From Desulfurococcales archaeon (GTDB taxonomy: Archaea > Thermoproteota > Thermoprotei_A > Sulfolobales > WAQK01), in assembly GCA_027083135.1 (NCBI GenBank), contig JALWQH010000044.1, positions 1 through 43,163 of the forward strand: a stretch of 43,163 bases of DNA, in the 5' to 3' direction. How positions within the stretch are numbered: position 1 is the first letter of the stretch; the number at the start of each line of letters is the position of its first letter. Below, in pieces: positions 9,243 to 25,093 of the stretch. The notes under the pieces are model-generated. The model did not search any database. It was not told where the DNA came from and worked only from the letters and a program-made list of their open reading frames with translations. The translations under genes and the position numbers were made by a program.

Positions 9243-9893
9243 ATGAGGCTGTATGTGGATACTGTGGATCCCCGGGAAATAGATGAAGCTATGGGCAGCG
9301 GAGTTGTCTATGGCGTTACATCCAATCCCTTCCTCTACGCTGAGAGAGGGGTGGAGAGTCTTAGAAGCCTTGTAGAGGAGCTTGAACCCCACGTTAGGAA
9401 CGAGCTCCACGTACAGGTTCCCGGCAGGAGGAACTCGGAGCTCGTGGATAATGCCCTAATGGTCTATGAGGTTAATCCTAGGAAAATAGTGGTTAAGATA
9501 CCTGCTATCGCTGAGGGCTTCAAGGCTATGAGGCAGCTTAAGGAGAGGGGGGTGAGGGTGACAGCCACCGCTGTGACAACGGCTTCCCAGGCTATACTAG
9601 CATCACTGGTAGGCGCAGACTATGTGGCACCATATGTGGGGAGGGTTGATGAGGCTGGGTACGGGGGCATGGAACTGCTCAGAACAATCATAGAGATCTA
9701 TAGGGCTCAGAGGACTGATACCATGATCCTGGCTGCAAGTATGCGTAGCCCCGGGCAGGTTGTGGAGGCCTATAGGCTTGGAGCTGATGCCGTCACCGTT
9801 AAGTACTCCATGTTTAGGAGGCTTATGGAGTCACAGCTAACCGAGGCGATTATGAGGCAGGTTGACGATATTTGGAGGGGGATCAGGCTCTAG
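9243..9893 (+). CDS. TalC/MipB-type transaldolase or fructose-6-phosphate aldolase family protein
   Basis: About 216 residues from ATG 9243, the small class I aldolase fold of the TalC group. MRLYVDTVDPREIDEAM..GVVYGVTSNPF gives strand 1. The Schiff-base lysine is in IVVKIPAIAEGFKAM, and VTATAVTTASQAILASLVGADYVAPYVGRVDEAG covers the following strands, with ILAASMRSPGQV later. The usual KIPTT has become KIPAI. Whether it acts as a transaldolase or as a fructose-6-phosphate aldolase cannot be told. A TATA-like gtttatatttta lies about 32-43 bases upstream. The neighbouring PfkB kinase and hexuloisomerase suggest sugar-phosphate interconversion. Confidence 0.85.
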   Translation: MRLYVDTVDPREIDEAMGSGVVYGVTSNPFLYAERGVESLRSLVEELEPHVRNELHVQVPGRRNSELVDNALMVYEVNPRKIVVKIPAIAEGFKAMRQLKERGVRVTATAVTTASQAILASLVGADYVAPYVGRVDEAGYGGMELLRTIIEIYRAQRTDTMILAASMRSPGQVVEAYRLGADAVTVKYSMFRRLMESQLTEAIMRQVDDIWRGIRL

Positions 9894-9902
9894 TACCAGT
9901 AT

Positions 9903-9923
9903 CCGGAGCTTCAACGTCTCCGG
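9903..9923. terminator. Hairpin between convergent talC-like and pfkB-like genes
   Basis: ccggag (9903-9908) and ctccgg (9918-9923) pair perfectly around a 9-base loop in the 48-base gap between two convergent genes. Position suggests a shared 3'-end structure. No clear T-run follows, so its role as a terminator is a guess. Confidence 0.35.
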
Positions 9924-9941
9924 TGATCCGTGTAGCCGTGC

Positions 9942-10910
9942 TTACAGCTCTATCCTGTATCCATGATTCCTGAGGAAGCTTCTAAGCTCATCTATGCGGG
10001 GTAGCCCTGTCTGGGCTCCTAGCTTGAGGCACTTCAGGGCTGCTGCAGCGTTGGCTACTATGGATGCCTCCCTGAGGCTGAGGCCCTTGACGACGTAGGA
10101 GTAGATGAAGGCCGCGTTGAATGCATCTCCAGCGCCAGTGGTGTCTATGGGCTCTATGCTGAAGGCAGGGGTCTCTATAACCCTGCTATCAGTTACTATA
10201 ATGCTCCCCTTATCGCCGCGTGTTATGACGATTATTTCCGGGCCGTATCTAAGAGCATCCCTAGCAGCCTCGAGCAGATTCTCCCTGCCTGTAAGGGTCT
10301 TTATGCCCAGCTTGTTAGGCATAAGTATGTTTGTGAGTTCAAGCATTGGTTTCAGCCCCTCCAGCCCGTAGTCGTTGACCACGTGTTTCTCCAGGTCGAA
10401 GGAGACTGTAAGCCCCCCCTTCCTAGCAATCCCCGCAGCCTTCACGGCTGTCTCAATCTTTATGGCTGAGGTGTGCAGGGCCTTGGCTGACAGAATATAT
10501 TGTTCGACGCCTCCATCAATGTAGTCTGGGTCGGGGACATTATTCTTGAGCGCTGGATCCATGAATATCATCTTCTCCCCCTCATGGTTCACTGCTATGA
10601 AGTTGACGGCTGTAGGCTTATCCTCATGGATCTTAACGTACTCCACGTCTACCCCCTCCCTCCTCAACGCTTCCAGCAGCATTAAGCCATGCTCATCCCT
10701 CCCCACGCCTCCTATGAAGCCTACTCTGCCGCCAAGCCTAGCCATGCCGACCGTGAAGTTTGCTGTAACCCCTCCTGGAAACCTGCCTGACTCCCTGAAG
10801 AAAATCTTCCCATCAACCTCCGGGAACCCGTCGACCTTTAGGATCCAGTCTATGCATATCTCCCCTAAGCCAACCACATCGAGGCTCTTGGAGCTTATAT
10901 TAACACCCAT
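9942..10910 (-). CDS. PfkB/ribokinase-family carbohydrate kinase
   Basis: 322 residues. VVGLGEICIDWILKVDGFPEVDGK at the N-terminus, GGVTANFTVGMARLGGRVGFIGGVGRDEHG, and the C-terminal signature DTTGAGDAFNAAFIYSYV with catalytic Asp and anion hole place it in the PfkB family. It phosphorylates a sugar or nucleoside; the substrate cannot be assigned from sequence. The start ATG 10910 abuts the stop of the upstream hexuloisomerase gene (one-base overlap), so the two are probably co-transcribed and linked in sugar-phosphate metabolism. Confidence 0.9.
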   Translation of the reverse strand: MGVNISSKSLDVVGLGEICIDWILKVDGFPEVDGKIFFRESGRFPGGVTANFTVGMARLGGRVGFIGGVGRDEHGLMLLEALRREGVDVEYVKIHEDKPTAVNFIAVNHEGEKMIFMDPALKNNVPDPDYIDGGVEQYILSAKALHTSAIKIETAVKAAGIARKGGLTVSFDLEKHVVNDYGLEGLKPMLELTNILMPNKLGIKTLTGRENLLEAARDALRYGPEIIVITRGDKGSIIVTDSRVIETPAFSIEPIDTTGAGDAFNAAFIYSYVVKGLSLREASIVANAAAALKCLKLGAQTGLPRIDELRSFLRNHGYRIEL

Positions 10911-14853: not shown

Positions 14854-15147
14854 TCATTGAGGATTAGAAGGCGTGCCGCGGTAGTATAGCCCGGCCAAGT
14901 ATGCGGGCCTCTCGAGCCCGTGTCCAGGTATGCGTGGGTAATGCCAGCCTGGCGGGAAACCCGGGTTCAAATCCCGGCCGCGGCACCACTCATTATTCCT
15001 TGCTGCTTCAACAAGCTGTTCAATCTTGTGGCATGGTCCTAGTGATTTTGTAATCTTTCGTTTTAATCCTGGGTCCCACCACTCCTTAACCAGGTAGTAG
15101 TGTCCCTTAACCTTCTTTACCCTGTAGAACACAGTGCTTATCCCCAC
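14854..15147 (-). CDS. int: SSV-type integrase, N-terminal part int(N), split by integration
   Basis: It starts at GTG 15147 and reads VFYRVKKVKGHYYLVKEWW..KRKITKSLGP, which parallels the SSV1 integrase N-terminus (an RYYVYKLEY...ERYVGP pattern). It then passes through the att repeat and into host sequence, where the last 15 codons are accidental. About 55 residues precede the att-coded segment. The fragment alone has no catalytic residues. It overlaps the primase 3' end by 41 bases in another frame. In the excised circle it continues in frame into int(C) at 22899-23655. Confidence 0.88.
   Translation of the reverse strand: MGISTVFYRVKKVKGHYYLVKEWWDPGLKRKITKSLGPCHKIEQLVEAARNNEWCRGRDLNPGFPPGWHYPRIPGHGLERPAYLAGLYYRGTPSNPQ
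14875..14988 (+). tRNA. tRNA-Glu (CTC) with a noncanonical intron
   Basis: The acceptor arms gccgcgg (14875-14881) and ccgcggc (14978-14984) pair perfectly. The anticodon stem is cgggc/gcccg around loop ctCTCga, and the T-arm is ccggg TTCAAAT cccgg (14961-14977). CCA is encoded. Forty bases lie between the anticodon stem and the T-stem, where about five are expected, so an intron of about 35 bases sits in the variable region (roughly 14922-14957). It can fold as ccagg...cctgg next to cccg/cggg, a relaxed bulge-helix-bulge. TATA-like gttataaag lies at 14839-14847. Its 3' part forms attL of the element. Confidence 0.9.
14903..14988 (+). repeat. attL: left 86-bp attachment-site repeat
   Basis: Identical over 86 bases to 23656-23741. 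It runs from the base before the anticodon stem of tRNA-Glu, through the whole intron, to the encoded CCA. Flanks differ at once on both sides (t before and c after here; a before and a after at the right copy). On the minus strand it codes for DLNPGFPPGWHYPRIPGHGL of the integrase. Confidence 0.95.
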
Positions 15148-16606
15148 TTCTTATTTCCCCCGTACCTGGTTTTAGCTTTGCCTCCATACCTACTGGGGAA
15201 ACAATTCGAGGCCTCTCTAATATATAGAATCTCACGGTCTTCGAGGGTGGTTCCTCTATTTTGCCTGGCCCTACGTCCACCCATTTCCCATTTACGAGGA
15301 ATTTTCTGCCTAGGAGGCCTTTCTGGGCGAGCATCCTCAGGATCCTCGAGTAGCTGCTCCACTCCTCAGCGCTCAGAGCCCCCTTCTTGGACTCCAGCCA
15401 CCTCTTAAAATCATCGTAGCCGAATTCCCGCAGACCAGTCTCCTCGAGAAACCTGCCCACCAAGCCTAGGCTAGAGGGGTTCCAGGCCTCTTTACCCTCA
15501 GGTTTTAGTTGTTTTGCGCGGCTGAGGGTGTAGGATACTGGGTCTCGGGTGTAGCCGCAGTTCAGGCATAGGCCTAGCTCCTTCATCTTCCTGCAGCTGG
15601 GCATCCTGTAATCCTTCCTGTAGATGTATTCGACCTGGTAGCGGGTTATGCTTTCCCTATAGTCCTTAGCGAAGCGTTTAAACAGGCTTATGGCTGCTTC
15701 AGGCGGGTATCCTAGGCGCTTAAGGTAGACCACCAGCCATACCCTCTGCATGTGGTCTGGGTCCCCAGAGTCCCTCAGAGTCTTCAATATGTTCCTTATG
15801 CAGGGGGGAGCCGCCTCGCTGTCCACGAGCTCTATGGGGTCCTGAGGTAACATTAGCTTCGTGGGCTTGGCATGCGTCCTGGGCCTAAGCCTCCTGGCCT
15901 CTATTTTGGGGAGAACCAGTCTGTAGACCACCACGCTCCTGGGATCCAGGGGTTTTAGGAGGCTCCACTCGAACTCCTCTGCCCTTATCCTGGGCTCAAT
16001 TATCCTTGCTAGGCGGGGCTTCTCACCCTCCTTTAGGTTGTAGGTGTAGGGTGGGCGTGAGAGCTGCCTATAATTCTCCACCATGCTGGGATCAACCAGG
16101 GGCTTATCCCTGCACTTCATGGATAGGTACCTGTAGGGCTGGATCAATGCCCGCCATATTGCCGAGTAGCCCTCATAGTCCGTGGGCTTGGATAGGGGCA
16201 CCACGATCCTGGCGCCCTTACGCCCTGTATGGTAGACCACTGGATCCACACCGTAGCCCCGCCTAATGCTCCCAGCAAACTCCAAGCCCCTCTCCACAGC
16301 CCTCTCAGGCTCCTCCTCGCAGTCGAAGTCGTATTGGATGGTGTCGTAGAGCAGGCAGTCCTCGGAGAGCTCGCTGAACAGGCATTCAGGCCTAATGAAA
16401 CCCACCCCCAGCAGCAGGGTATAATCCCTGGCCCTCTGCAAGTCTTTCTCCAATAGGAGTCTGAAACCCTCAACCGTGTACTGCCCTCTATGCTTAAACC
16501 CCGAGCCCCTAGGCGGGCCGCGGCACCAGAAAACCTCCCTAGCCTCAGCCACACCCAGAGGCCCCTCAAACCACTTAAGCAGAAAATCCCTAGCCCAAGG
16601 CTTCAA
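15107..16606 (-). CDS. Archaeo-eukaryotic primase fused to a PriL-like Fe-S-type domain
   Basis: 499 residues from TTG 16606, with ggaggtgg seven bases upstream. The catalytic AEP domain shows YDFD (Asp 93 and 95), YHTGRKGARIVVPL (about 125-138, the sxH-like motif) and VDPSMVENYRQLSRPPYT (about 171-187). Residues 267-350 read PPCIRNILKTL...HMQRVWLVVYLKRLGY...YRMPSCRKMKELGLCLNC, with Cys 269, 338, 347 and 350. That is the spacing style of the primase large-subunit C-terminal iron-sulfur domain. About 150 further residues look winged-helix-like. It should prime, and perhaps extend, DNA for the element. Only the small-subunit core and the PriL-type domain are read from sequence; polymerase activity is inference. 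Confidence 0.85.
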   Translation of the reverse strand: MKPWARDFLLKWFEGPLGVAEAREVFWCRGPPRGSGFKHRGQYTVEGFRLLLEKDLQRARDYTLLLGVGFIRPECLFSELSEDCLLYDTIQYDFDCEEEPERAVERGLEFAGSIRRGYGVDPVVYHTGRKGARIVVPLSKPTDYEGYSAIWRALIQPYRYLSMKCRDKPLVDPSMVENYRQLSRPPYTYNLKEGEKPRLARIIEPRIRAEEFEWSLLKPLDPRSVVVYRLVLPKIEARRLRPRTHAKPTKLMLPQDPIELVDSEAAPPCIRNILKTLRDSGDPDHMQRVWLVVYLKRLGYPPEAAISLFKRFAKDYRESITRYQVEYIYRKDYRMPSCRKMKELGLCLNCGYTRDPVSYTLSRAKQLKPEGKEAWNPSSLGLVGRFLEETGLREFGYDDFKRWLESKKGALSAEEWSSYSRILRMLAQKGLLGRKFLVNGKWVDVGPGKIEEPPSKTVRFYILERPRIVSPVGMEAKLKPGTGEIRSGDKHCVLQGKEG

Positions 16607-16625
16607 AGCCCAGCCACCTCCAGAA

Positions 16626-16760
16626 ACTTTCGACTAGGGAAGTTGGGTAGATGGAGGTAAATGGAAGTGACATACCCTTTTTTCGCGGAAACACGTTTTC
16701 AATTTTCAGCATAGCAACAAACGTCAACCTCCATCTACCTCCATCTACCTCGCCGAAAGT
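16626..16760. repeat. Nested inverted repeat between helicase and primase genes
   Basis: Arms 16646-16665 and 16730-16749 match as an inverted repeat at 19 of 20 positions (core tagatggaggtaaatgga). Outer arms actttcg (16626-16632) and cgaaagt (16754-16760) also pair. The 64-base centre holds ttttttcgcggaaa, which resembles the GTTTTyyCGC motif repeated at 22237-22580. The second arm is itself two tandem copies of ccatctacct. Its place between replication genes suggests an origin, a replication-protein site or a regulatory structure for primase expression; which one is not decided. Confidence 0.6.
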
Positions 16761-16774
16761 ATTCTTGGCTGGCA

Positions 16775-18679
16775 TCATAGTAGCTGCCTCCGCGGCTCGC
16801 CTAACCCTACGAAGAATGTGTAGCCTTTCTCCCGCCTGGTCTTTACTCCGTATCTGGCTAGGGATGCCTTGAGCTCTTTCGTGAACTGGGTGGGGTCTGG
16901 TATCTTCTCTGTGATGCTTGGCTTCTCTTCCTCCTCTTCTTCAGCCTCTTCCCCAAGCTCCTGTTTCGCCTTCTTCTCCGCGTATTCGATTACTAGGTTG
17001 TAGAGGTCTGCCGACTTGATTTTGAGGTCTTTGTCCATCTTCAGCCTGCCCTTTTCTACCAGCTCCATGACGAGCGCGTATGATGGGTTAGAGTAGCGTT
17101 CAAGTGCATCCTCTACATCCATTATTCCCGTGTATGAGTAGGAGCCGCGGTGGTAGGCTAAGCGTAGGGCGTAGAGGCTGCAGATGATCAGGGCTTCTAT
17201 GTCCTGCTCTGCAAGTAGGCTGTCAAGCCTGAACTCCTTTTCCTCAAACGTGTTTTTGAACTCTATTACCTTGAATCTTTTGAGTAGGGCTTTCCTAGCT
17301 TCTCCCTCTTCCTTGATCTTGGGCGGGTCGTTTGAACCTATGTAGAGCTTGTAGGCTGGGTAGTAGTCGAAGGGGTTTCCGTAGAGCCTGCGGCCCGTCA
17401 CTATGTCTCCGCCAGCTATGCTGCGTATTATGCTCCAATCGCTTACCCTGTCTCTTCTGCCCACGTCTGCGGCTATAACGGCCAGCTTGTTGTAGAGTTT
17501 GCCTAGGGTGCGCCACAATGTCTCCTCGTTTGCGCTTCCCAGGTAGCGTAGCCTGGTGGCAGCATAGTTCTCTCTTCCCAGCACGAGGTCTCCGAGGAGC
17601 TTCAGGAGGAAGGTGGATTTACCGCTGTTGGGCGGGCCTAGTAGGGCGAAGATGTCTTTGAAGACTATTGCTCCGAATACCCTGTAGCCTGGGAGCATTG
17701 CGCGTCCAATCATTTCGAGGAGGAAGGCTATGCGGGACTCGAGGAGCTCGGGGGTTATGTCCTCGAACCATGCCCAGGATTCTAGGAGCTTGTATGCTTT
17801 CGGGGATAAGGCTTGCAGCAGGGCTACTATCTGCCTGAATGTTGTGGGCGGAGTATCTATCTCAAGGTATGTCTCTAATCCTTCTCTAAGCTCCTTAACT
17901 AGCCCTGTGTTAAGCTGGTGGGGGATCTTGTGAAACACGTATAGGTTTTTGTCGAAGCCTGTGAGGGCGTCTAGGGGGCTGCCTGTCTCGAGGAACTTCT
18001 CCCAGTTAAACACCCCGTTCTCAAATGCTATTAGGGGTGTATGGGTTGGTTCAAGGATCCTTGAGGCGAGGAGCTCTATCTTATTGTTGAGGATCTCGTC
18101 TACCACGGTCTTAGTTGTTCTCAGGGCCTGCATGTTCTCGAGGTAGCCTCGGATAAGTGTTTTGACGCGGTCTCTGCACTCCCTCCACACTCCTTCTTCG
18201 TAGCAGTGTATGCCTAGGCTTGACAGGCTTCCCCCCATCTTGAGCTTAAGGAAACCCACGTCATGGTCTTCTATCAGCCTCTTCGCGATCTCCATTGCTA
18301 GGAGCTCCTTGTCCGTGGCTTCTCTGGGCACGACTTTTATCCGCCCGTAGAGCATGATCTCGGCTTCCCTCTTCATCAGGAAGTACTCCCAGTTAGCCGC
18401 GTAGAACTCTATGATCTTCCTCACATTGTCGTCAAGCTCATACATGCTGATTTCACGGGGATCAGTGAAGCTCCCATAGCCGTAGAGAACAACATCGGTT
18501 CCTTCGCCTCTGCCCCACACCCAGAAGCCTGTTTTCCTCCCCATGCGTTTCAGGAAGACCACGTAGTCCCCTACACGTATCTTCATCTCCCGCCTCGTGA
18601 TCGCCTCAACCTCGGCCGAAACATCAATGATGCTGGGCCTAGCCACTTCCACGGCTCCCACCCCTTTGACGGGAAGCAT
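16775..18679 (-). CDS. SF3/D5-like replicative helicase
   Basis: 634 residues. A D5_N-like region (about 215-345: IAFENGVFNWEKFL...GFDKNLYVFHKIPHQ) precedes the ATPase. Walker A is GPPNSGKST (about 348-356), Walker B falls in KLAVIAADVG (about 398-407), motif C is KLYIGSNDPP (about 444-453) and an arginine-finger region RKALLKRFKVIEF follows. This order is that of superfamily 3 helicases of the poxvirus D5/P4 alpha type. The N-terminal 200 residues carry no primase motif; the primase is the separate neighbouring gene. A Glu-rich linker and a small C-terminal domain (about 570-634) end the protein. ATG 18679 overlaps the upstream nuclease gene by 41 bases. Confidence 0.88.
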   Translation of the reverse strand: MLPVKGVGAVEVARPSIIDVSAEVEAITRREMKIRVGDYVVFLKRMGRKTGFWVWGRGEGTDVVLYGYGSFTDPREISMYELDDNVRKIIEFYAANWEYFLMKREAEIMLYGRIKVVPREATDKELLAMEIAKRLIEDHDVGFLKLKMGGSLSSLGIHCYEEGVWRECRDRVKTLIRGYLENMQALRTTKTVVDEILNNKIELLASRILEPTHTPLIAFENGVFNWEKFLETGSPLDALTGFDKNLYVFHKIPHQLNTGLVKELREGLETYLEIDTPPTTFRQIVALLQALSPKAYKLLESWAWFEDITPELLESRIAFLLEMIGRAMLPGYRVFGAIVFKDIFALLGPPNSGKSTFLLKLLGDLVLGRENYAATRLRYLGSANEETLWRTLGKLYNKLAVIAADVGRRDRVSDWSIIRSIAGGDIVTGRRLYGNPFDYYPAYKLYIGSNDPPKIKEEGEARKALLKRFKVIEFKNTFEEKEFRLDSLLAEQDIEALIICSLYALRLAYHRGSYSYTGIMDVEDALERYSNPSYALVMELVEKGRLKMDKDLKIKSADLYNLVIEYAEKKAKQELGEEAEEEEEEKPSITEKIPDPTQFTKELKASLARYGVKTRREKGYTFFVGLGEPRRQLL

Positions 18680-19316
18680 AACACCTCAAGGCGTAGGGGC
18701 AGTAGTTGCATAGAATGCTGGGCTCAGGTTTAGGTGGCTTGTCCTCGAGAATTGCTTGGTGGAGCGTCTTGGCTCTCTCCACTAGGAGGCGCCAAAGTTC
18801 AGGGCTCCATTGATGGCGGAATACCTTGACCAGGCCGTCCCTCTTCTTAATATATACTATGTATCCATGCTTGGCTCTCAGCATGTATAGGTAGGCGTTT
18901 AGCTGTAGGCGGTGGCTCTGATAAGGGCTGTCAGGTATCTTGGAAGCAGTCTTCAACTCCACTACAATGTTGTCTTCAGGGTGGTATAGGTCTGCGTGGC
19001 CTGCGAGCTTGAAGCCCCCGAGGTCAGCGTAGGCCTCCACCTCGCTCAGCCAGCCCTGCCCAGCCAAGTAGTCCTGCAACGCTTCATGAACACCATTACC
19101 GATGGCGTAGACTATGAAGCGTGGATGAGCCTCTGATAAGCCATACTTGCGCTCATACCAGGCCTTCCGCAGGCACCCCGTGGCCTCGCTCACATGGATA
19201 ATATTGGGCCTATACTGCCTAGCCCTGCTTCTAGCCATCTCGTAGAACCATCTATACACTACGCTGGTCGTCAGCTCGGCCACGTCTATCACCTCAAACC
19301 CTGTAGGAAGGGGCAT
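18639..19316 (-). CDS. Cas4-like RecB-family nuclease with a four-cysteine cluster
   Basis: 225 residues from ATG 19316; an in-frame ATG at 19361 would overlap the upstream gene more. The PD-(D/E)XK core reads AGHADLYH...IVVELKTASKIP with H...QLNAYLYML as the QxxxY motif. One Cys lies before the core (EATGCLRKAWYE) and three after it (LCNYCPYALRC), as in Cas4/AddB-type iron-sulfur nucleases. No Cas1 or CRISPR array is nearby, so this is a replication or recombination nuclease of the element rather than part of a CRISPR system (inference). Such proteins are frequent in archaeal viruses and plasmids. Confidence 0.87.
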   Translation of the reverse strand: MPLPTGFEVIDVAELTTSVVYRWFYEMARSRARQYRPNIIHVSEATGCLRKAWYERKYGLSEAHPRFIVYAIGNGVHEALQDYLAGQGWLSEVEAYADLGGFKLAGHADLYHPEDNIVVELKTASKIPDSPYQSHRLQLNAYLYMLRAKHGYIVYIKKRDGLVKVFRHQWSPELWRLLVERAKTLHQAILEDKPPKPEPSILCNYCPYALRCYASRQRGGSRGSG

Positions 19317-19684
19317 CCCTCGGTGCCGTAGAGGCCGCAGACCCCCGAGTCTGAGAAGCATGAGGATAAGCAGGGATGCTCCTCGAGGAATTCGTGAAGC
19401 TCTTGGGGTACAAGATATAGGTGAGGCCTCGAGTTCCGCCAGGGTACTAGTAGGCCCAGCCTAGCTAAGTGATGTAACGCTAGGCCCACCTCAGTGTAGG
19501 CGTTCCTGCCCTCGAGGCCCAGGCTCCTCACAACTCTACGCGCACTTAGAGACGAGGCTCCAGGATGAAGCTTAAGGTATGTGAGAACCAGGCCTAAGCC
19601 GCGTCTAAGCCTGATCCTATAAGCCTGCGAAGTGGATTTAGAGGGTGAAAAAATAATTTGGGTTTGGGGGGTCTGTGTCGCCAC
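19289..19684 (-). CDS. Winged-helix DNA-binding protein with Cys-rich tail
   Basis: 131 residues from GTG 19684, behind ggggtgaagaccc. Residues about 25-85 (RGLGLVLTYLKLHPGASSLSARRVVRSLGL....YTEVGLALHHLARLGLLVPW) have the helix pattern and the beta-wing of a winged helix-turn-helix. The tail CLSSCFSDSGVCGLYGTEGCPF has four cysteines that could bind a metal. It lies in the early part of the minus-strand operon and may act in replication or regulation. No closer family was recognised. Confidence 0.62.
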   Translation of the reverse strand: MATQTPQTQIIFSPSKSTSQAYRIRLRRGLGLVLTYLKLHPGASSLSARRVVRSLGLEGRNAYTEVGLALHHLARLGLLVPWRNSRPHLYLVPQELHEFLEEHPCLSSCFSDSGVCGLYGTEGCPFLQGLR

Positions 19685-19690
19685 GGGTCT

Positions 19691-20023
19691 TCACCCCCTG
19701 GCCTCAGCCTTCTGGGGCTGGGGGGTGGGGACCTTCTCAGCCTTTTCATCATACTTGAAGACATCGTAGGCTCCGCTGAAGGGCCACATGCCGCTGCTGA
19801 TTTCCTTAAGGGCTTGGAGTATGTTGTATTCCAGCCAGCCCAGCATTTCCTCCATGAACCGCTTGTTTACTGCGTGCTCGGCTGTCTGCCCCACAGCCTG
19901 CTCCAGGGCTAACACTGTTTGAAGAGCCCCCACCAGCTCAGCCCTAGTCACCAGAGCCGCAACCTCCTCCACCTCCAACTGATTCCCCTGCACCCCCAGC
20001 CATAGGTAGAGGCTACTCACCAC
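19691..20023 (-). CDS. Helical protein of unknown function
   Basis: 110 residues from GTG 20023, which directly follows the TGA of the upstream small gene. The sequence is almost wholly helical and Glu/Ala/Leu-rich (LEVEEVAALVTRAELVGALQTVLALEQAVGQTAEHAVNKRFMEEMLGWLEYNILQALKEI), ending in a Pro/Lys tail. No family was recognised. Tight packing with its neighbours (0 and 6 base gaps) supports it as a real gene of the element's minus-strand operon. Confidence 0.55.
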   Translation of the reverse strand: MVSSLYLWLGVQGNQLEVEEVAALVTRAELVGALQTVLALEQAVGQTAEHAVNKRFMEEMLGWLEYNILQALKEISSGMWPFSGAYDVFKYDEKAEKVPTPQPQKAEARG

Positions 20024-20170
20024 TCACCACCCCTCCTTCTCCCCAACCTCAGCCAGCAGGCCATCAATACTCTCAATGAGTTCCCTCAGCTCCTGCAGCT
20101 CTCTTTCAAGCCTGGCAACCCTTGCCTCAAGGCTCCCCAAGGTTATCGTCCTTGATATCGTCTGAGCCAT
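20024..20170 (-). CDS. 48-residue coiled-coil protein
   Basis: It starts at ATG 20170. Residues 13-41 (SLEARVARLERELQELRELIESIDGLLAE) form a clear heptad coiled coil. The same frame is open to 20638, but that upstream part lies antisense to the AbrB-type gene and across its promoter, so the short form is the real gene. It is the first gene of the minus-strand replication operon. Function unknown; an oligomerising adaptor or small regulator is possible. Confidence 0.55.
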   Translation of the reverse strand: MAQTISRTITLGSLEARVARLERELQELRELIESIDGLLAEVGEKEGW

Positions 20171-20195
20171 TTTTCTACACCTCTTTTCTGTGGTA

Positions 20196-20260
20196 GATAT
20201 TTGTGTCTGCCCCATATAAAGTTTGTGCCAGAAATCTGTGCCAGAAACTAGAGTTTTTAA
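20196..20260. promoter_or_regulatory. Divergent promoter with two 13-bp direct repeats
   Basis: tgtgccagaaa occurs at 20224-20234 and again at 20237-20247, a 13-base period, with a weaker relative (tttgtgtctgcc) at about 20198-20209. catataaag (20213-20221) is a TATA box read on the minus strand and gtttttaa (20252-20259) one on the plus strand. The repeats lie between the two boxes, where a bound regulator could control both directions. The adjacent AbrB-type protein is the obvious candidate. Confidence 0.55.
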
Positions 20261-20293
20261 TCTGTTTCTCCTATTATCTACAGGGAGATGAGG

Positions 20294-20461
20294 ATGGCTA
20301 AGCAGGTTAGCCTCCAGACCAAACAGGCAGGCACCAGCATTTACTTCGTTACTGTGCCCAAGGGATATGTCGAAGCGCTTGGTTGGAAGAAGGGAGACAG
20401 GCTTACTGTCGAGGTCATTGACTACAAAGGCACTAAGGCCATTATCTACTATAAGCCCTAG
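20294..20461 (+). CDS. AbrB/SpoVT-family swapped-hairpin DNA-binding protein
   Basis: 55 residues from ATG 20294, behind gggagatgagg; ATG 20288 is an in-frame alternative. AKQVSLQTKQAGTSIYFVTVPKGYVEALGWKKGDRLTVEVIDYKG has the beta-strand, P-K-(x)-helix and G-W-KKGD turn pattern of archaeal AbrB/SpoVT swapped-hairpin domains. It probably acts as a dimeric regulator of the element. It is transcribed away from the replication operon, with direct repeats in the shared promoter. Too short for an ordinary gene finder but strongly patterned. Confidence 0.8.
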   Translation: MAKQVSLQTKQAGTSIYFVTVPKGYVEALGWKKGDRLTVEVIDYKGTKAIIYYKP

Positions 20462-20702
20462 GCTATGCATCGGCTTCAACCTCGCTTGAACTAGTACTCG
20501 TATAACCACGATAACGTCTCTTCCTATGAGGAAATTCAGCCTCCTACCTAGGTAGACAGCGGCTCTGCCTCCTATCCTGGTAACTTTTCGTGGGCCAACC
20601 TCAATTGTCTCATTAATTATGCGTATTTGGGACTTCACTTGACTCTACCTAGGATGTACTTAATAGCATGTGTGGTTAAAGTAAACCACTAAGTGGACAA
20701 CC

Positions 20703-21458
20703 ATGATGAATGGTAGACCACGCCTAATGGACAACTACCTTGATTACTATGAAGCAATACTAAAGGCCATGGAGGAGTTAGGAGGGCGAGTATCCAGTAA
20801 AAACCAGCTTTTCGAATATGTAAGGGATAAATATAGACTAAAATCAAGAAAGACCTTCTACAAACGCTTATCCGAGCTCATTGAGCAGGGCCTCATTACT
20901 TGTAAACAAGAACCTTCATCAGCAAAGCACAGTGGTTTAGAGTGCCAGCTCGAATACAAATACCAGGCACTCAAAATTCTCGAGGAATCCAGGAAAGCCT
21001 TTCCTGGAATGATGGATATCATTGAGGAAGAAATAGAAAAACACAGTATACAAGTCTCGCCAGACTTTGTGGCAATGACCTTTGTAACCTTTCTCAGCTA
21101 TCTCGTAATGCATCATGTAGGGATGCTATATGTAGCTAGTGAAGCCAAAATTGATAGAATCCTTAGGTATTTAATGGCCAAACGTATCGAAGAGGAAGTA
21201 AGAAAATTCATAGGGTTCTTACCTGAGCCTCAGGGAAGCCCTGAGAAATGGGGAACTGAGCTAAAAAGAATGGCCGACTTTGTAAGAGGAGTATATAAAA
21301 TATGGGCAAAGTCTTGTTCATGTGGTAAGAAAATAGAAAAAATTGTGAAGAGAATGCCCCTCGACTTCTATGCAGAATGTTGGAAGCAAGGTAAAGGTAA
21401 GATAGAATTTAAAACGCAAATGTATGGGATTCAAGCACTATGTCAGAGAATGGAATAA
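20703..21458 (+). CDS. Element protein with N-terminal winged helix, unknown function
   Basis: 251 residues. Residues 10-70 (NYLDYYEAILKAMEELGGRVSSKNQLFEYVRDKYRLKSRKTFYKRLSELIEQGLI) look like a winged helix-turn-helix. The middle is helical with a hydrophobic stretch (VAMTFVTFLSYLVMHHVGMLYVAS). A Cys pair, CSCGKK, and more cysteines lie near the end. Base composition is visibly richer in A/T and lysine codons than the surrounding genes, which suggests a separate history. No family was recognised. A candidate element regulator or maintenance protein. Confidence 0.65.
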   Translation: MMNGRPRLMDNYLDYYEAILKAMEELGGRVSSKNQLFEYVRDKYRLKSRKTFYKRLSELIEQGLITCKQEPSSAKHSGLECQLEYKYQALKILEESRKAFPGMMDIIEEEIEKHSIQVSPDFVAMTFVTFLSYLVMHHVGMLYVASEAKIDRILRYLMAKRIEEEVRKFIGFLPEPQGSPEKWGTELKRMADFVRGVYKIWAKSCSCGKKIEKIVKRMPLDFYAECWKQGKGKIEFKTQMYGIQALCQRME

Positions 21459-21497
21459 GGTTGAAAGAGATAGCGAGAGATAGCGTAGGGATTAGTC

Positions 21498-21641
21498 TTA
21501 TGCTGAGGCTGCGAGCTTCCATGTTTTCTTGTAGGCATCATAGGCTTGGCGTTTCAGTTCTTTCAGTCTCAGAGACCTGAGGGCCTCAAGGTATTCTTTG
21601 AGTGCGTTATATAACTCTGGGCTTATAGAGGACTGTAATCT
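21498..21641 (-). pseudogene. Short helical coding fragment without a usual start codon
   Basis: On the minus strand 47 codons ending in TAA (21498-21500) read ISPELYNALKEYLEALRSLR followed by LKELKRQAYDAYKKTWKLAA, an amphipathic helical peptide with coding-like composition. The frame is closed upstream by TGA, and no ATG, GTG or TTG lies inside the conserved-looking part; an ATA is available at position 6. It may be a truncated gene or a very small gene with an unusual start. Confidence 0.35.
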
Positions 21642-21951
21642 TCAAGAATATTTTCGCTTATGTGGATCCCTATCCCCGTGGTCAGAACGTATATGGTAAC
21701 CCATGTTCTTTGTGGGGGGTTTCTGTCCGTACGGGGTGGATAGCTCGGTATTATATGCTGTGTATTTGTTCTTTCGTTCTTTGGCTTTCTTCCAGGGGCT
21801 GGTTTGCCTTCTTCCCCCGGCTACATGTAGTGTACCTGGGCCCTTCATGTTTTCTTCCAGGGGCTTCTCTTTTCTGGTGGGAGGATGGGGTAACATTATA
21901 CATACGTGGTTATTCTTTCTTCTATTCTTCTGGGTTTGGGTAGGAGTGTTT
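21642..21951. other. Noncoding element segment with a 15-bp direct repeat
   Basis: No convincing gene. tttcttccaggggct occurs exactly at 21786-21800 and 21851-21865, 65 bases apart. The whole stretch is pyrimidine-rich on the plus strand, like 22190-22700. Together they flank the small gene 21952-22188 and may belong to one origin or regulatory region. Confidence 0.45.
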
Positions 21952-22188
21952 ATGAGGAGCTGGGTAGAAGTGATGTGTAGGTGTGGGGAGCCGCTAATGG
22001 CTGATAGGCTCATGACGCTTAAGGAGTGGAGGAGGTATAGGGATATGGCGGGGATACTGATAGACCTGGTGGTCGAGGCAGGCAACGGCGACGAGGCCTG
22101 GAGCATCTACCATGCCTGGCGCGACGGCAAGCTCACCTACAGGCAAGCCCTAGCCAGGCTCAAGAAGCTGGCACGAGAAGCAAAATGA
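21952..22188 (+). CDS. Small helical protein of unknown function
   Basis: 78 residues from ATG 21952; ATG 21997, behind ggggagccgcta, gives 63 residues and may be the true start. The longer form carries CRC before MADRLMTLKEWRRYRDMAGILIDLVVEAG. The second half (DEAWSIYHAWRDGKLTYRQALARLKKLAREAK) is a clean helical pair. The reading frame further upstream is low-complexity and probably not coding. No family recognised. Confidence 0.5.
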   Translation: MRSWVEVMCRCGEPLMADRLMTLKEWRRYRDMAGILIDLVVEAGNGDEAWSIYHAWRDGKLTYRQALARLKKLAREAK

Positions 22189-22704
22189 CCCAGCTCCCCT
22201 CCACTTGTTTTCCATGCTCCTTATATAGTGAGGCATGGTTTTTTCCGCGGCATAATTACTGCAGATGCCTGGTTTTCCGCGGCGGGCCTTGTAGGCATAC
22301 CTGTGAACACGAGCATGTTACTATGTGTGTTTTCCTTTTTCCGTTTTCCAATTCTCTCTTTCCCGAAGTTGCTTATCAGGAGCATAGGTTTTCCCAGACA
22401 TGCACCCTCGGGGAGGCTTGTTTTCCCGCAGCACTGGGATGGAGTAGGGGTGTCTACTAGGCCTACATGTTACTATTGTTTTCCCGTTTCCCTTTTCCCA
22501 ACCAGGATTTTTCTCGCGGCCTCATACCTGTGCCTGCCTGTTTTCTCGCCCAGCCATGCTGAGAACCCATTGTTTTTTCGCAGGACCCCTCTATTCCAGG
22601 TATGCTGGGCTAGCCACATGTTACACCTTTTTCTCTCTTCTCGTTTCTCGCCCTTCCCCGACTCCTCTACTTGCCTGTAGGCCTATGCTCCGCGGCTAGT
22701 CTGT
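22189..22704. repeat. Repeat-rich noncoding region, candidate replication origin
   Basis: The sequence is pyrimidine-rich on the plus strand. CATGTTAC occurs exactly at 22314, 22466 and 22617 (152 and 151 bases apart), each time followed by a 35-45-base C/T tract. Variants of GGTTTT(y)CCGC or TGTTTTyyCGC start near 22237, 22271, 22387, 22419, 22477, 22539 and 22571, several about 32 bases or twice that apart. Open frames across it are composition artefacts. Iteron-like repeats in the largest noncoding part of a self-replicating element suggest its origin; function is inference. Confidence 0.55.
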
Positions 22705-22902
22705 TTAGAGGAAGTAGCGGATCGGATTCCTCGCATGAGGGATCACCTCTACCCTATAGTTTGCCGACCACGCGCCCAATACTCTTCCGTCACTGGCCTC
22801 CACTATGACGACTACCCTGATCATCCGTAGCTTCCCCTTACGCTCAAGCTTGGCCAGCCTGCGCAGCAGCCTGGGATCATCGAAGATGACGGTGTACCTC
22901 AT
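22705..22902 (-). CDS. 65-residue protein coupled to int(C), unknown function
   Basis: It starts at ATG 22902, which overlaps the int stop codon (ATGA), with ggtgaggt just upstream, so translation is probably coupled. The sequence is basic at first (RYTVIFDDPRLLRRLAKLERKGKL) and then alternates as beta strands (MIRVVVIVEASDGRVLGAWSANYRVEVIP). It may be a small DNA-binding or excision cofactor of the integrase, judged from position only. No family recognised. Confidence 0.55.
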   Translation of the reverse strand: MRYTVIFDDPRLLRRLAKLERKGKLRMIRVVVIVEASDGRVLGAWSANYRVEVIPHARNPIRYFL

Positions 22903-23723
22903 GACCTCACCCCGCGCAGCCACTCCGCGTATCTGGGGTAGTGTTTGTCTGCTGCTCCTAGGAGCTGGGCGTAGCTCTGCTCCAACACTGTTCTTGGGCT
23001 TCTTCCCTGGATGAAGTCTATTATGTGGGGCGGTATGTCTAGCTCGGCCATCTTGGTGGCCACGAATTTCCTCAGGTATTTCGGCGGCACCAGCCTCTTC
23101 TTCTCAGCGTAGCTCGTCACCCTCCTATCACTTATGCCTGGCATGGGCTCCACGGGTGTGAGGTGGTAGGCCCACAGGCTCCTCTTCCTGCCCCGTTCTC
23201 TGCCCAGAAGGCATCTCTTAAACCCGCCTAGCTCCACGCACTCTAGCTCCGCGTATTCTTTGATGAGCCTGACGGCCTCCACTAGCCTTAGCCCTGATTC
23301 AAGTAGGATTAGGTAGACCTGCCTGTAGGGCCCCGCCCCCTCGATGCTCTCTAGGATTGCTTGTAGGCCTGGGACCCTGAGGTCGGGCCTAGCCTGAGGC
23401 ACCCTTACGTGCTTGTAGGCCTCGCATGCCGCCTGGTCGCCCTGCAGGCACCTCCACTTATAATACAGCTTGTAGGCCTTAGCGCTCCACCTGTTAGACG
23501 CGTCTAGGGGCCTCCTGAGATACGCGGCGTATTTATGGCAGGTCTCAGGGCTGGTTCCCCGCTCCAGGCACCAGGTTTCCCATAACCCGACATAGTAGGA
23601 GTCAAGGCCCCCGCTCATCACTGGGGAAACACTATTTAAACCACCCATACCCACAGCGGGCCTCTCGAGCCCGTGTCCAGGTATGCGTGGGTAATGCCAG
23701 CCTGGCGGGAAACCCGGGTTCAA
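22899..23723 (-). CDS. int: SSV-type integrase, C-terminal catalytic part int(C)
   Basis: The catalytic domain of a tyrosine recombinase. LESGLRLVEAVRLI holds the first Arg, the hairpin Lys lies near GRKRSLWAYHLTP, YLRKFVATKMAELDIPPHII holds the second conserved basic group, and GRSPRTVLEQSYAQLLG holds the nucleophilic Tyr. The stretch from YLRKFVATKMAE to YAEWLRGV closely parallels the SSV1 integrase C-terminus. Its first codons lie in the att repeat, and the first internal ATG is at 23618. In the integrated state it lacks its N-terminal domain; joined to int(N) it makes about 333 residues, like SSV1 Int. Confidence 0.93.
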   Translation of the reverse strand: MNPGFPPGWHYPRIPGHGLERPAVGMGGLNSVSPVMSGGLDSYYVGLWETWCLERGTSPETCHKYAAYLRRPLDASNRWSAKAYKLYYKWRCLQGDQAACEAYKHVRVPQARPDLRVPGLQAILESIEGAGPYRQVYLILLESGLRLVEAVRLIKEYAELECVELGGFKRCLLGRERGRKRSLWAYHLTPVEPMPGISDRRVTSYAEKKRLVPPKYLRKFVATKMAELDIPPHIIDFIQGRSPRTVLEQSYAQLLGAADKHYPRYAEWLRGVRS

Positions 23724-23741
23724 ATCCCGGCCGCGGCACCA
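23656..23741 (+). repeat. attR: right 86-bp attachment-site repeat (tRNA-Glu 3' fragment)
   Basis: An exact copy of 14903-14988, containing the anticodon arm, intron, T-arm, 3' acceptor strand and CCA of tRNA-Glu but no 5' acceptor or D-arm. It is not a functional tRNA gene. It marks the right end of the element. Confidence 0.95.
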
Positions 23742-23884
23742 AGCTCTTCTAACATTGTTCCATGGAATGCCGGCATAGCTGAGGCTTATATTCTGAGCTG
23801 AAGCGTCCTAGAGTGGGGGGATGTACTGCTGGCTGGGAAGCTATTTGTAGTAGTAGTGTATTATTATGGGATTGGTGCTGGGTT

Positions 23885-25093
23885 TTGGATCCTGTTGTCA
23901 AGTATATTTTGGATAGGAGTAGGGAGCTTAACCCCAGTATTGTTGAGTGGCGTAGGGATTTCCACATGCATCCTGAGCTCGCATACCAGGAGCGTAGGAC
24001 TGCCAGCATAGTTGCCGGGAAGCTGAGGGAGTGGGGCTACGAGGTAGCAACGGGTATTGCTGAGACAGGGGTGGTGGGCCTGCTTAGGGGAGGGGATAGT
24101 GGTGGAACCATAGCTCTTAGGGCTGATATGGATGCCCTCCCCCTAGAGGAGCTCAACGATGTTCCCTACAAGTCGAGGGTTAAGGGGGTTATGCATGCCT
24201 GCGGCCACGACGCGCATACAGCCATGCTGCTGGGAGCAGCCAGAATACTCTCAGAGATCAGGAATAGGCTTCGGGGCAACGTGAAGCTGATATTCCAGCC
24301 CGCCGAGGAGGGTGGGAACGGTGCTGAGAGGATGGTGAGGGAGGGGGTTCTAGAAGACCCCCATGTAGACGTTATCTACGGGATACATGTATGGAGCCTC
24401 CTAGAGTCGGGGAAAATAGGGTTGAGAGAGGGCCCAATACTAGCGGCGGTGGGGGTTATTGAAATAGAGGTTAAGGGTAAGGGAGGGCATGGAGCATACC
24501 CGCATACATGCATAGACCCTATAGTCGCTGGAAGCAGCATAGTCTCCAACCTCCAGTCAATAGTGAGCAGAAACCTGGATCCACTTGAACCCGGAGTGGT
24601 CAGCATATGCTCCTTCCAGGCAGGCAGAGCATTCAACGTGATACCTGAGAAAGCAGTGCTTAAAGGCACGTACAGGGCCCTCACCAAGGAGGCGCTCAGC
24701 CTCATAAGGAGGAGGATCAGGGAGATTGCAGGCAAGACATGCGAGGCCTATGATGTTGAGTGCAGCATAAGGGTTGAAGACAGGACTCCCCCCACGATAA
24801 ATGAGCCTCAGGCCACGAGGTTCGCCAGGAAAGTGCTGGCAGAAGCCTTCGGCGAAGATGCTTTAACCGAGATTAAGCCCAGCATGGGTGGCGAGGACTT
24901 CGCCTTCTACCTGGAGAAGGTGCCTGGAGCATTCATCAACCTTGGAACAGGGAATCCAGCCAAGAAGACCAATATGCCTCACCATAGCCCCTGGTTCGAC
25001 GTCGACGAGGATGTGCTCTACATGGGTGCAGCAATACACTCGCTGCTAGCCTACAGGTTCCTGTCAAGCAGGGGCAGAAACGCTAGGTTGTAG
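23885..25093 (+). CDS. M20D-family amidohydrolase (N-acyl-amino-acid/IAA-conjugate hydrolase type)
   Basis: About 402 residues from TTG 23885 behind ggtgctgggtt; the frame is open further upstream but composition there is not coding-like. WRRDFHMHPELAYQERRTA opens the protein. Metal-ligand motifs are ALRADMDALPLEE, MHACGHDAHTAMLLGAA, QPAEEGGNGAERMVREG, GIHVW and MGGEDFAFY, all intact. The family hydrolyses N-acyl amino acids, with carboxypeptidase and aminoacylase members; substrate not assigned. It lies directly beyond attR on the host side. Confidence 0.93.
   Translation: MDPVVKYILDRSRELNPSIVEWRRDFHMHPELAYQERRTASIVAGKLREWGYEVATGIAETGVVGLLRGGDSGGTIALRADMDALPLEELNDVPYKSRVKGVMHACGHDAHTAMLLGAARILSEIRNRLRGNVKLIFQPAEEGGNGAERMVREGVLEDPHVDVIYGIHVWSLLESGKIGLREGPILAAVGVIEIEVKGKGGHGAYPHTCIDPIVAGSSIVSNLQSIVSRNLDPLEPGVVSICSFQAGRAFNVIPEKAVLKGTYRALTKEALSLIRRRIREIAGKTCEAYDVECSIRVEDRTPPTINEPQATRFARKVLAEAFGEDALTEIKPSMGGEDFAFYLEKVPGAFINLGTGNPAKKTNMPHHSPWFDVDEDVLYMGAAIHSLLAYRFLSSRGRNARL

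Follow-up and report, generated by a model that had tools for sequence, protein, structure and literature searches.

The window analysed here, a 43,163-bp contig (C44) from the 1.75 Mb genome of a Desulfurococcales archaeon (57 contigs, 99.6% complete), carries an integrated element between two copies of an attachment (att) sequence, one of which completes an intron-containing tRNA-Glu gene. The copies lie at 14903-14988 and 23656-23741 with a spacing of 8,753 bp, are identical at 86 of 86 positions and form the sole long direct repeat within 14-25 kb of the window. The left copy forms the 3' portion of the host tRNA-Glu(CTC) gene (14875-14988, + strand; anticodon at 14911-14913; 48.8 bits in Rfam, and called as tRNA-Glu by ARAGORN with introns allowed); it begins in the anticodon stem and finishes at the CCA. 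The gene, which has no second full-length match in its own genome, is regenerated by the integration, leaving direct repeats at both element ends as in SSV-type insertions. The right copy falls within the larger part of an integrase gene, which the insertion has split.

The N-terminal integrase part, Int(N), is a 97-aa open reading frame (ORF) on the - strand (14854-15147) that runs through the left att copy into host DNA, and the catalytic part, Int(C), occupies 22899-23741 (-). Rejoined over one att copy, the halves give a single open frame of 333 codons with a GTG start at 15147, so that the attachment site of the circular form (attP) lies inside the integrase gene. The C-terminal part matches the SSV1 integrase structures 3uxu, 3vcf and 4dks at E ~1e-26 (3uxu, 9e-27), as well as phrog_5127 (1e-78) and, above the cut-off, Pfam Phage_integr_3 (PF16795, 8e-31), which places it in the family of SSV-type integrases. 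The R, K, R and Y positions are conserved in the integrase alignment, and the protein is predicted to catalyse integration and excision.

The cargo begins with a single-chain primase (15107-16606, -) composed of an archaeo-eukaryotic primase (AEP) domain (residues ~1-245), a PriL C-terminal Fe-S domain (256-362; PF04104, 1e-16) and, at the C-terminus, a conserved region (371-466), possibly a winged helix. It is followed by a superfamily 3 (SF3) helicase of the P4/D5 type (16775-18679, -; Walker A motif GPPNSGKST; TIGR01613, 1.5e-21) and a PD-(D/E)XK nuclease (18639-19361, -) that belongs to the Cas4 family by its TIGR00372 score of 74.9 bits against a cut-off of 65. No cas1/cas2 genes or array stand beside the nuclease gene, which is flanked in the element by the helicase gene and by small ORFs lacking any match to Cas proteins. 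The smaller genes comprise a conserved 131-aa protein, probably a winged helix (19289-19684, -), a conserved 110-aa protein (19691-20023, -), a 56-aa probable coiled coil (20024-20194, -), a predicted AbrB/MazE-like DNA-binding protein (20288-20461, +; PF04014, 2.6e-6; homologues in the related elements L094 and L102), a 251-aa protein (20703-21458, +) whose below-cut-off match to PF22194 (E 0.011) hints weakly at a winged-helix regulator, and a 72-aa ORF (22705-22923, -) without a family match in Pfam or PHROGs.

Most of this agrees with a preliminary description of the locus, which had proposed SSV-type integration into an intron-containing tRNA-Glu gene with the att site dividing the integrase gene, 86-bp repeats, a 333-residue integrase restored on excision and an 8,753-bp circle closed at 23741/14989. 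Its account of the cargo, a replication set of primase-PriL fusion, SF3 helicase and Cas4-like nuclease with no recognisable virion genes, is likewise reproduced by the profile searches, in which no scanned ORF matched a virion protein family of Pfam, NCBIfam or PHROGs. The empty-site junction it had predicted, 14902/23742, is however wrong, as both att copies would be deleted; the correct junction is 14988/23742 or, equivalently, 14902/23656. Three things were missing from the description: that the genome holds a second related element, that the tRNA intron plays a part in attP, and that two primase modules alternate among the element's relatives; we turn to them below.

A tRNA intron within the coding attachment site

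The tRNA intron (14923-14958, +) is 36 nt long and lies wholly within att; its second copy, in the part of the repeat inside Int(C), is found at 23676-23711. Its removal yields a normal 78-nt tRNA. The intron interrupts the variable region (45/46) of the tRNA and not the canonical position 37/38. A possible bulge-helix-bulge pairing of the intron flanks (CCCG-TGT-CCAGG with CCTGG-CGGG-AAA) can be discerned by eye, although the motif is absent from free-energy folds. Read as part of the integrase gene, the intron amounts to exactly 12 in-frame codons, and its presence therefore leaves the integrase frame unshifted.

The other two genomes of the host family (G001 and G002), which belong to a different genus, keep the pair of tRNA-Gly(TCC) and tRNA-Glu(CTC) genes and have neither half of the element at this locus. 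An orthologous intron of 37 nt occupies the same place of the same tRNA in both. The tRNA is intron-free in many further genomes of the host order, where it matches at 74 of 74 positions. An import of the intron into the host by the element was rejected as an explanation, since the sister genus has the orthologous intron and no element at the locus; for the same reason the host intron is older than the insertion. Judging from these sequences, the host had the intron first, and the attP of the element now carries a copy of it. The simplest history would be that an integrase lineage aimed at tRNA-Glu gained the intron in its attP while inside an intron-bearing host, for instance through exchange between the left and right att copies (attL and attR). 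If cleavage took place in the anticodon loop, the functional tRNA gene would now have the element's intron and Int(C) that of the host; the two being identical, host and element would have matched when they met. The next conserved DNA after the tRNA pair in the sister genomes corresponds to the window from ~25.2 kb onward; between these two landmarks neither genome has the M20-type peptidase gene that the window carries just outside attR (23813-25093, +).

The window integrase matched 61 records of the phage collection, all of them viruses of Sulfolobales, and the nearest relative, 64% identical over 328 residues, is an unsplit 339-aa protein (9787-10806, +) on an 18.2-kb virus-like IMG/VR contig, L211. 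The internal attP of L211 is that of the window minus exactly the 36-nt intron, with one anticodon base changed in addition (TTC vs CTC). About 58 nt of this intron-free attP are also present in the spindle-shaped viruses SSV3 and SSV4. The att stretch is read in different frames in the two integrases (VVPRPGFEPG in L211, WCRGRDLNPG in the window) and the att-coded linker is thus free to vary between conserved flanks. Fuselloviral integrases of the SSV type (SSV1, SSV3, SSV4) belong to the same family and share the in-gene attP and the split at the 3' half of a tRNA gene, but they are only 34-35% identical to the window integrase, whose attP contains a tRNA intron coding for 12 residues. Most other scanned proteins of L211 lack informative family matches. 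Elsewhere in the host genome, downstream of an SRP54-like gene, an intact tyrosine-recombinase-like protein of 322 aa is encoded (C54:28198-29166; L018 1069-2037, +), possibly a chromosomal recombinase.

Insertion into intron-bearing tRNA genes has precedents. Among integrated thaumarchaeal elements, 10 of 39 tRNA insertions are reported in intron-containing tRNA genes, and a split integrase resembling that of SSV1 is present in one cryptic element (PMC6563490); the passages of that survey consulted here do not describe an intron inside the coding attP of a suicidal integrase. According to one proposal introns shield tRNA genes against integrating elements (Randau and Soll), and according to another attP sites act as vectors of introns (Sugahara et al. 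2012), both as cited in PMC3293823. The element described here deals with the intron by making it part of attP, where it is read as integrase codons. Because the same 36 nt serve as an intron, as part of a recombination site and as protein code, the protection and vector ideas both become testable.

The element family and its alternating primase modules

The same genome contains a second related element (L025, C34:38877-48996; 10,063 bp) in a tRNA-Leu gene, with a 57-bp att sequence (56 of 57 positions identical) and a split integrase that rejoins in frame to 396 aa. Its Cas4-like nuclease is 86-87% identical to that of the window element, its winged-helix protein 75%, its counterparts of the 110-aa and 56-aa proteins 58% and 67-77%, and the C-terminal region of its primase 79% over 96 residues. 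It differs in carrying another replicative ATPase, an SSV DnaA-like ATPase and a homologue of PolB1-binding protein 2 (PF22511, 9e-25) that might recruit the host polymerase. The 131-aa winged-helix candidate is also found, at 37-40% identity, in L098, L100 and L101. A primase search across the host order recovered related elements in several host families, and split integrases that rejoin in frame occur in seven elements besides that of the window, in various tRNA genes (L025, L019, L023, L024, L094, L098 and L101). In L094, from another host family and another tRNA, the gene order primase-helicase-Cas4 is kept, with an AbrB-like gene beyond. The window element is thus a member of a modular family spread over several families of the host order, whose common genes are replication genes and the integrase. 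Helicase and primase queries against viral and genome contigs returned no relatives, nor did the Cas4-like nuclease against genome contigs.

An alignment of 13 family primases reveals a shared catalytic domain with a DFD motif, a Gly-Lys-Gly region, an Asp and an RxPYT motif; the window primase has the DFD motif and an RPPYTYN-type motif, its domains being assigned from profile matches. The alignment is too divergent for a pattern scan. Against the PDB, the family profile hits PriS and non-homologous end-joining polymerases, and the matches of its middle domain are PriX and PriL. This middle domain is of two kinds: a PriL C-terminal domain (PriL-CTD) in eight of the 13 primases, including that of the window element, and PriX in the other five, including that of the C34 element. 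The PriX domains match the PriX structures 4wyh and 5of3_C.

PriCT, PriL and PriX are known to be structurally related (Kazlauskas et al., PMC5862659), and in a PriL-PriX chimera engineered by Holzer et al. (PMC5700102) PriX replaces PriL-CTD as the priming module, to demonstrate that it fulfils the function of the Fe-S domain. The family contains a natural version of this engineered swap. In contrast to the PriSLX primase of Sulfolobus, either module is here fused directly behind the catalytic AEP domain, and on mobile elements; no earlier description of AEP-PriX fusions was found in the open-access literature. Because the two forms exist naturally, even together in a single genome, related enzymes are at hand in which to compare what the Fe-S cluster contributes.

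The closest published parallel to the PriL form is PolpTN2 of the Thermococcus plasmid pTN2 (PMC3973330, PMC5862659), also a single-chain fusion of AEP and PriL. The motif II His is replaced in both, by Gln in PolpTN2 and by Arg in the window primase. PolpTN2, which has a predicted C-terminal winged helix, is however longer than 900 residues, against about 500 here, and the pTN2 helicase is of superfamily 1 while ours is SF3. PolpTN2-like proteins have been described as limited to Thermococcales (Kazlauskas et al., PMC5862659). A tblastn search with the window primase found no match in the phage collection and none, even at E 1, in the plasmid collection, whose inclusion of pTN2 was not checked.

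Where might the PriX modules have come from? As a separate chromosomal gene PriX was found in host families f5, f6 and f11 only. The host genome has no PriX other than that of the C34 element, and none of eight other hosts of PriL-type elements has one, whereas several hosts of PriX-type elements do; this contrast may reflect relatedness only. In a PriX tree (97 columns, with two very long mobile branches) the mobile PriX domains do not form one clade and lie outside the PriX of f6 hosts, a topology that does not decide which way PriX was transferred. With both forms present in the family, mobile elements become candidates in the history of PriX. It is conceivable, though in our judgement doubtful, that the mobile single-chain primases of this family exchange PriL-CTD and PriX, that mobile elements, and not cellular chromosomes, shuttle or even originated the Sulfolobales-type PriX and that the attP sites of suicidal integrases move tRNA introns between genomes. 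A chromosomal gene of family f5 appears to be a direct fusion of a PriL N-terminal domain with PriX, resembling the published chimera (L213 495-1559, -, in G016:C2; L189/L214 in G026:C16); in G016 it has a below-cut-off PF04104 match at positions 3-86, followed by PriX.

Plasmid, satellite or virus

What kind of element is this? The preliminary description had left it between an integrative plasmid and a virus with unfamiliar structural proteins, and our results favour the plasmid, because the genes shared within the family are replicative, the helicase resembles those of pRN-like plasmids and virion families are absent from the profile scans. The helicase is 26% identical to pRN-like Rep proteins over 64-75% of the length; the plasmids that it matches along the greater part of its length, NC_002101 (6,959 bp) and NC_005562 (7,598 bp), are crenarchaeal replicons of pRN-like size which we take to be members of the pRN family. 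We therefore regard the 8,753-bp element as very probably an SSV-type integrative plasmid, distinguished by its tRNA intron within a coding attP and by the alternation of PriL and PriX among the primases of its family. It is no typical pRN plasmid, since the pRN Rep joins a prim-pol, a helix bundle and an SF3 helicase in one protein, whereas here the primase and helicase are separate genes, the primase is an AEP-PriL fusion and a Cas4-like nuclease is present. A published integrated plasmid, pSSVi, is likewise discussed together with suicidal integrases (PMC8371274). Two observations weigh against this reading. Six small genes without an assigned function leave room for a virion or packaging role, and the location of the nearest integrase on a virus-like contig means that the integrase module travels with viruses too.

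These points lend some substance to other readings. The element could be a satellite like pSSVx or pSSVi, a pRN-like replicon that travels in the particles of a helper virus and is excised by the helper's integrase. It is a small replicon with an SSV-type integrase, pSSVi is known to interact with SSV2 (PMC8371274), and the close integrase on L211 targets another tRNA-Glu; L211, however, shares no structural or packaging gene with the window element, only the integrase and att region being detected as matching, and we consider a satellite unlikely. SSV integrases are mostly viral, and the unassigned ORFs might instead encode the unrecognised structural proteins of a complete provirus. This is very unlikely in an element of only ~9 kb, of which ~5.1 kb is taken by the primase, helicase, nuclease and integrase, whose conserved family genes are those of replication and which has no structural match in PHROGs; the VP1/VP3-type structural genes of Fuselloviridae were not found, nor did any scanned window ORF match a structural family of PHROGs or Pfam.

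The split integrase, in turn, might mark a stranded remnant that is no longer mobile. We find this quite unlikely, as the identity of the att copies and the open state of all main frames suggest that the integration is recent or that the element still cycles. Finally, the 3' halves of tRNA genes can be duplicated, and an unrelated duplication of this kind, named in the preliminary description as grounds for refuting its proposal, would account for the 86-bp repeat by itself. But the repeat spans the anticodon stem to the CCA, the integrase frame crosses it and both element ends are absent from the sister genomes; with frame and synteny contradicting it, such a duplication is extremely improbable.

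As an integrative plasmid, the element would replicate as a circle with its own single-chain primase (AEP and PriL-CTD) and SF3 helicase, its 333-aa integrase carrying attP inside its own gene. Strand exchange would admit the plasmid into tRNA-Glu(CTC), with cleavage probably in the anticodon loop, as is known for the SSV1 integrase (PMC8371274). The 3' half of the tRNA gene would be restored together with its 36-nt intron, because attP carries the intron as 12 integrase codons. The same event would break up the integrase gene, leaving Int(N) and Int(C), and the integrated state would consequently, in all probability, remain stable until an intact integrase of a related kind is supplied in trans, as excision probably requires and as has been described for SSV2 and pTN3 (PMC8371274). 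A candidate replication origin might tentatively be placed in a 1.2-kb ORF-poor region (21460-22700), which holds four of the seven matches to a TTTTCC(C)GCGG-like pattern in the window (1.5 expected), with such motifs at 22239-22519. A 23-nt imperfect inverted repeat with a 58-nt spacer also lies between the primase and helicase genes (16646-16749).

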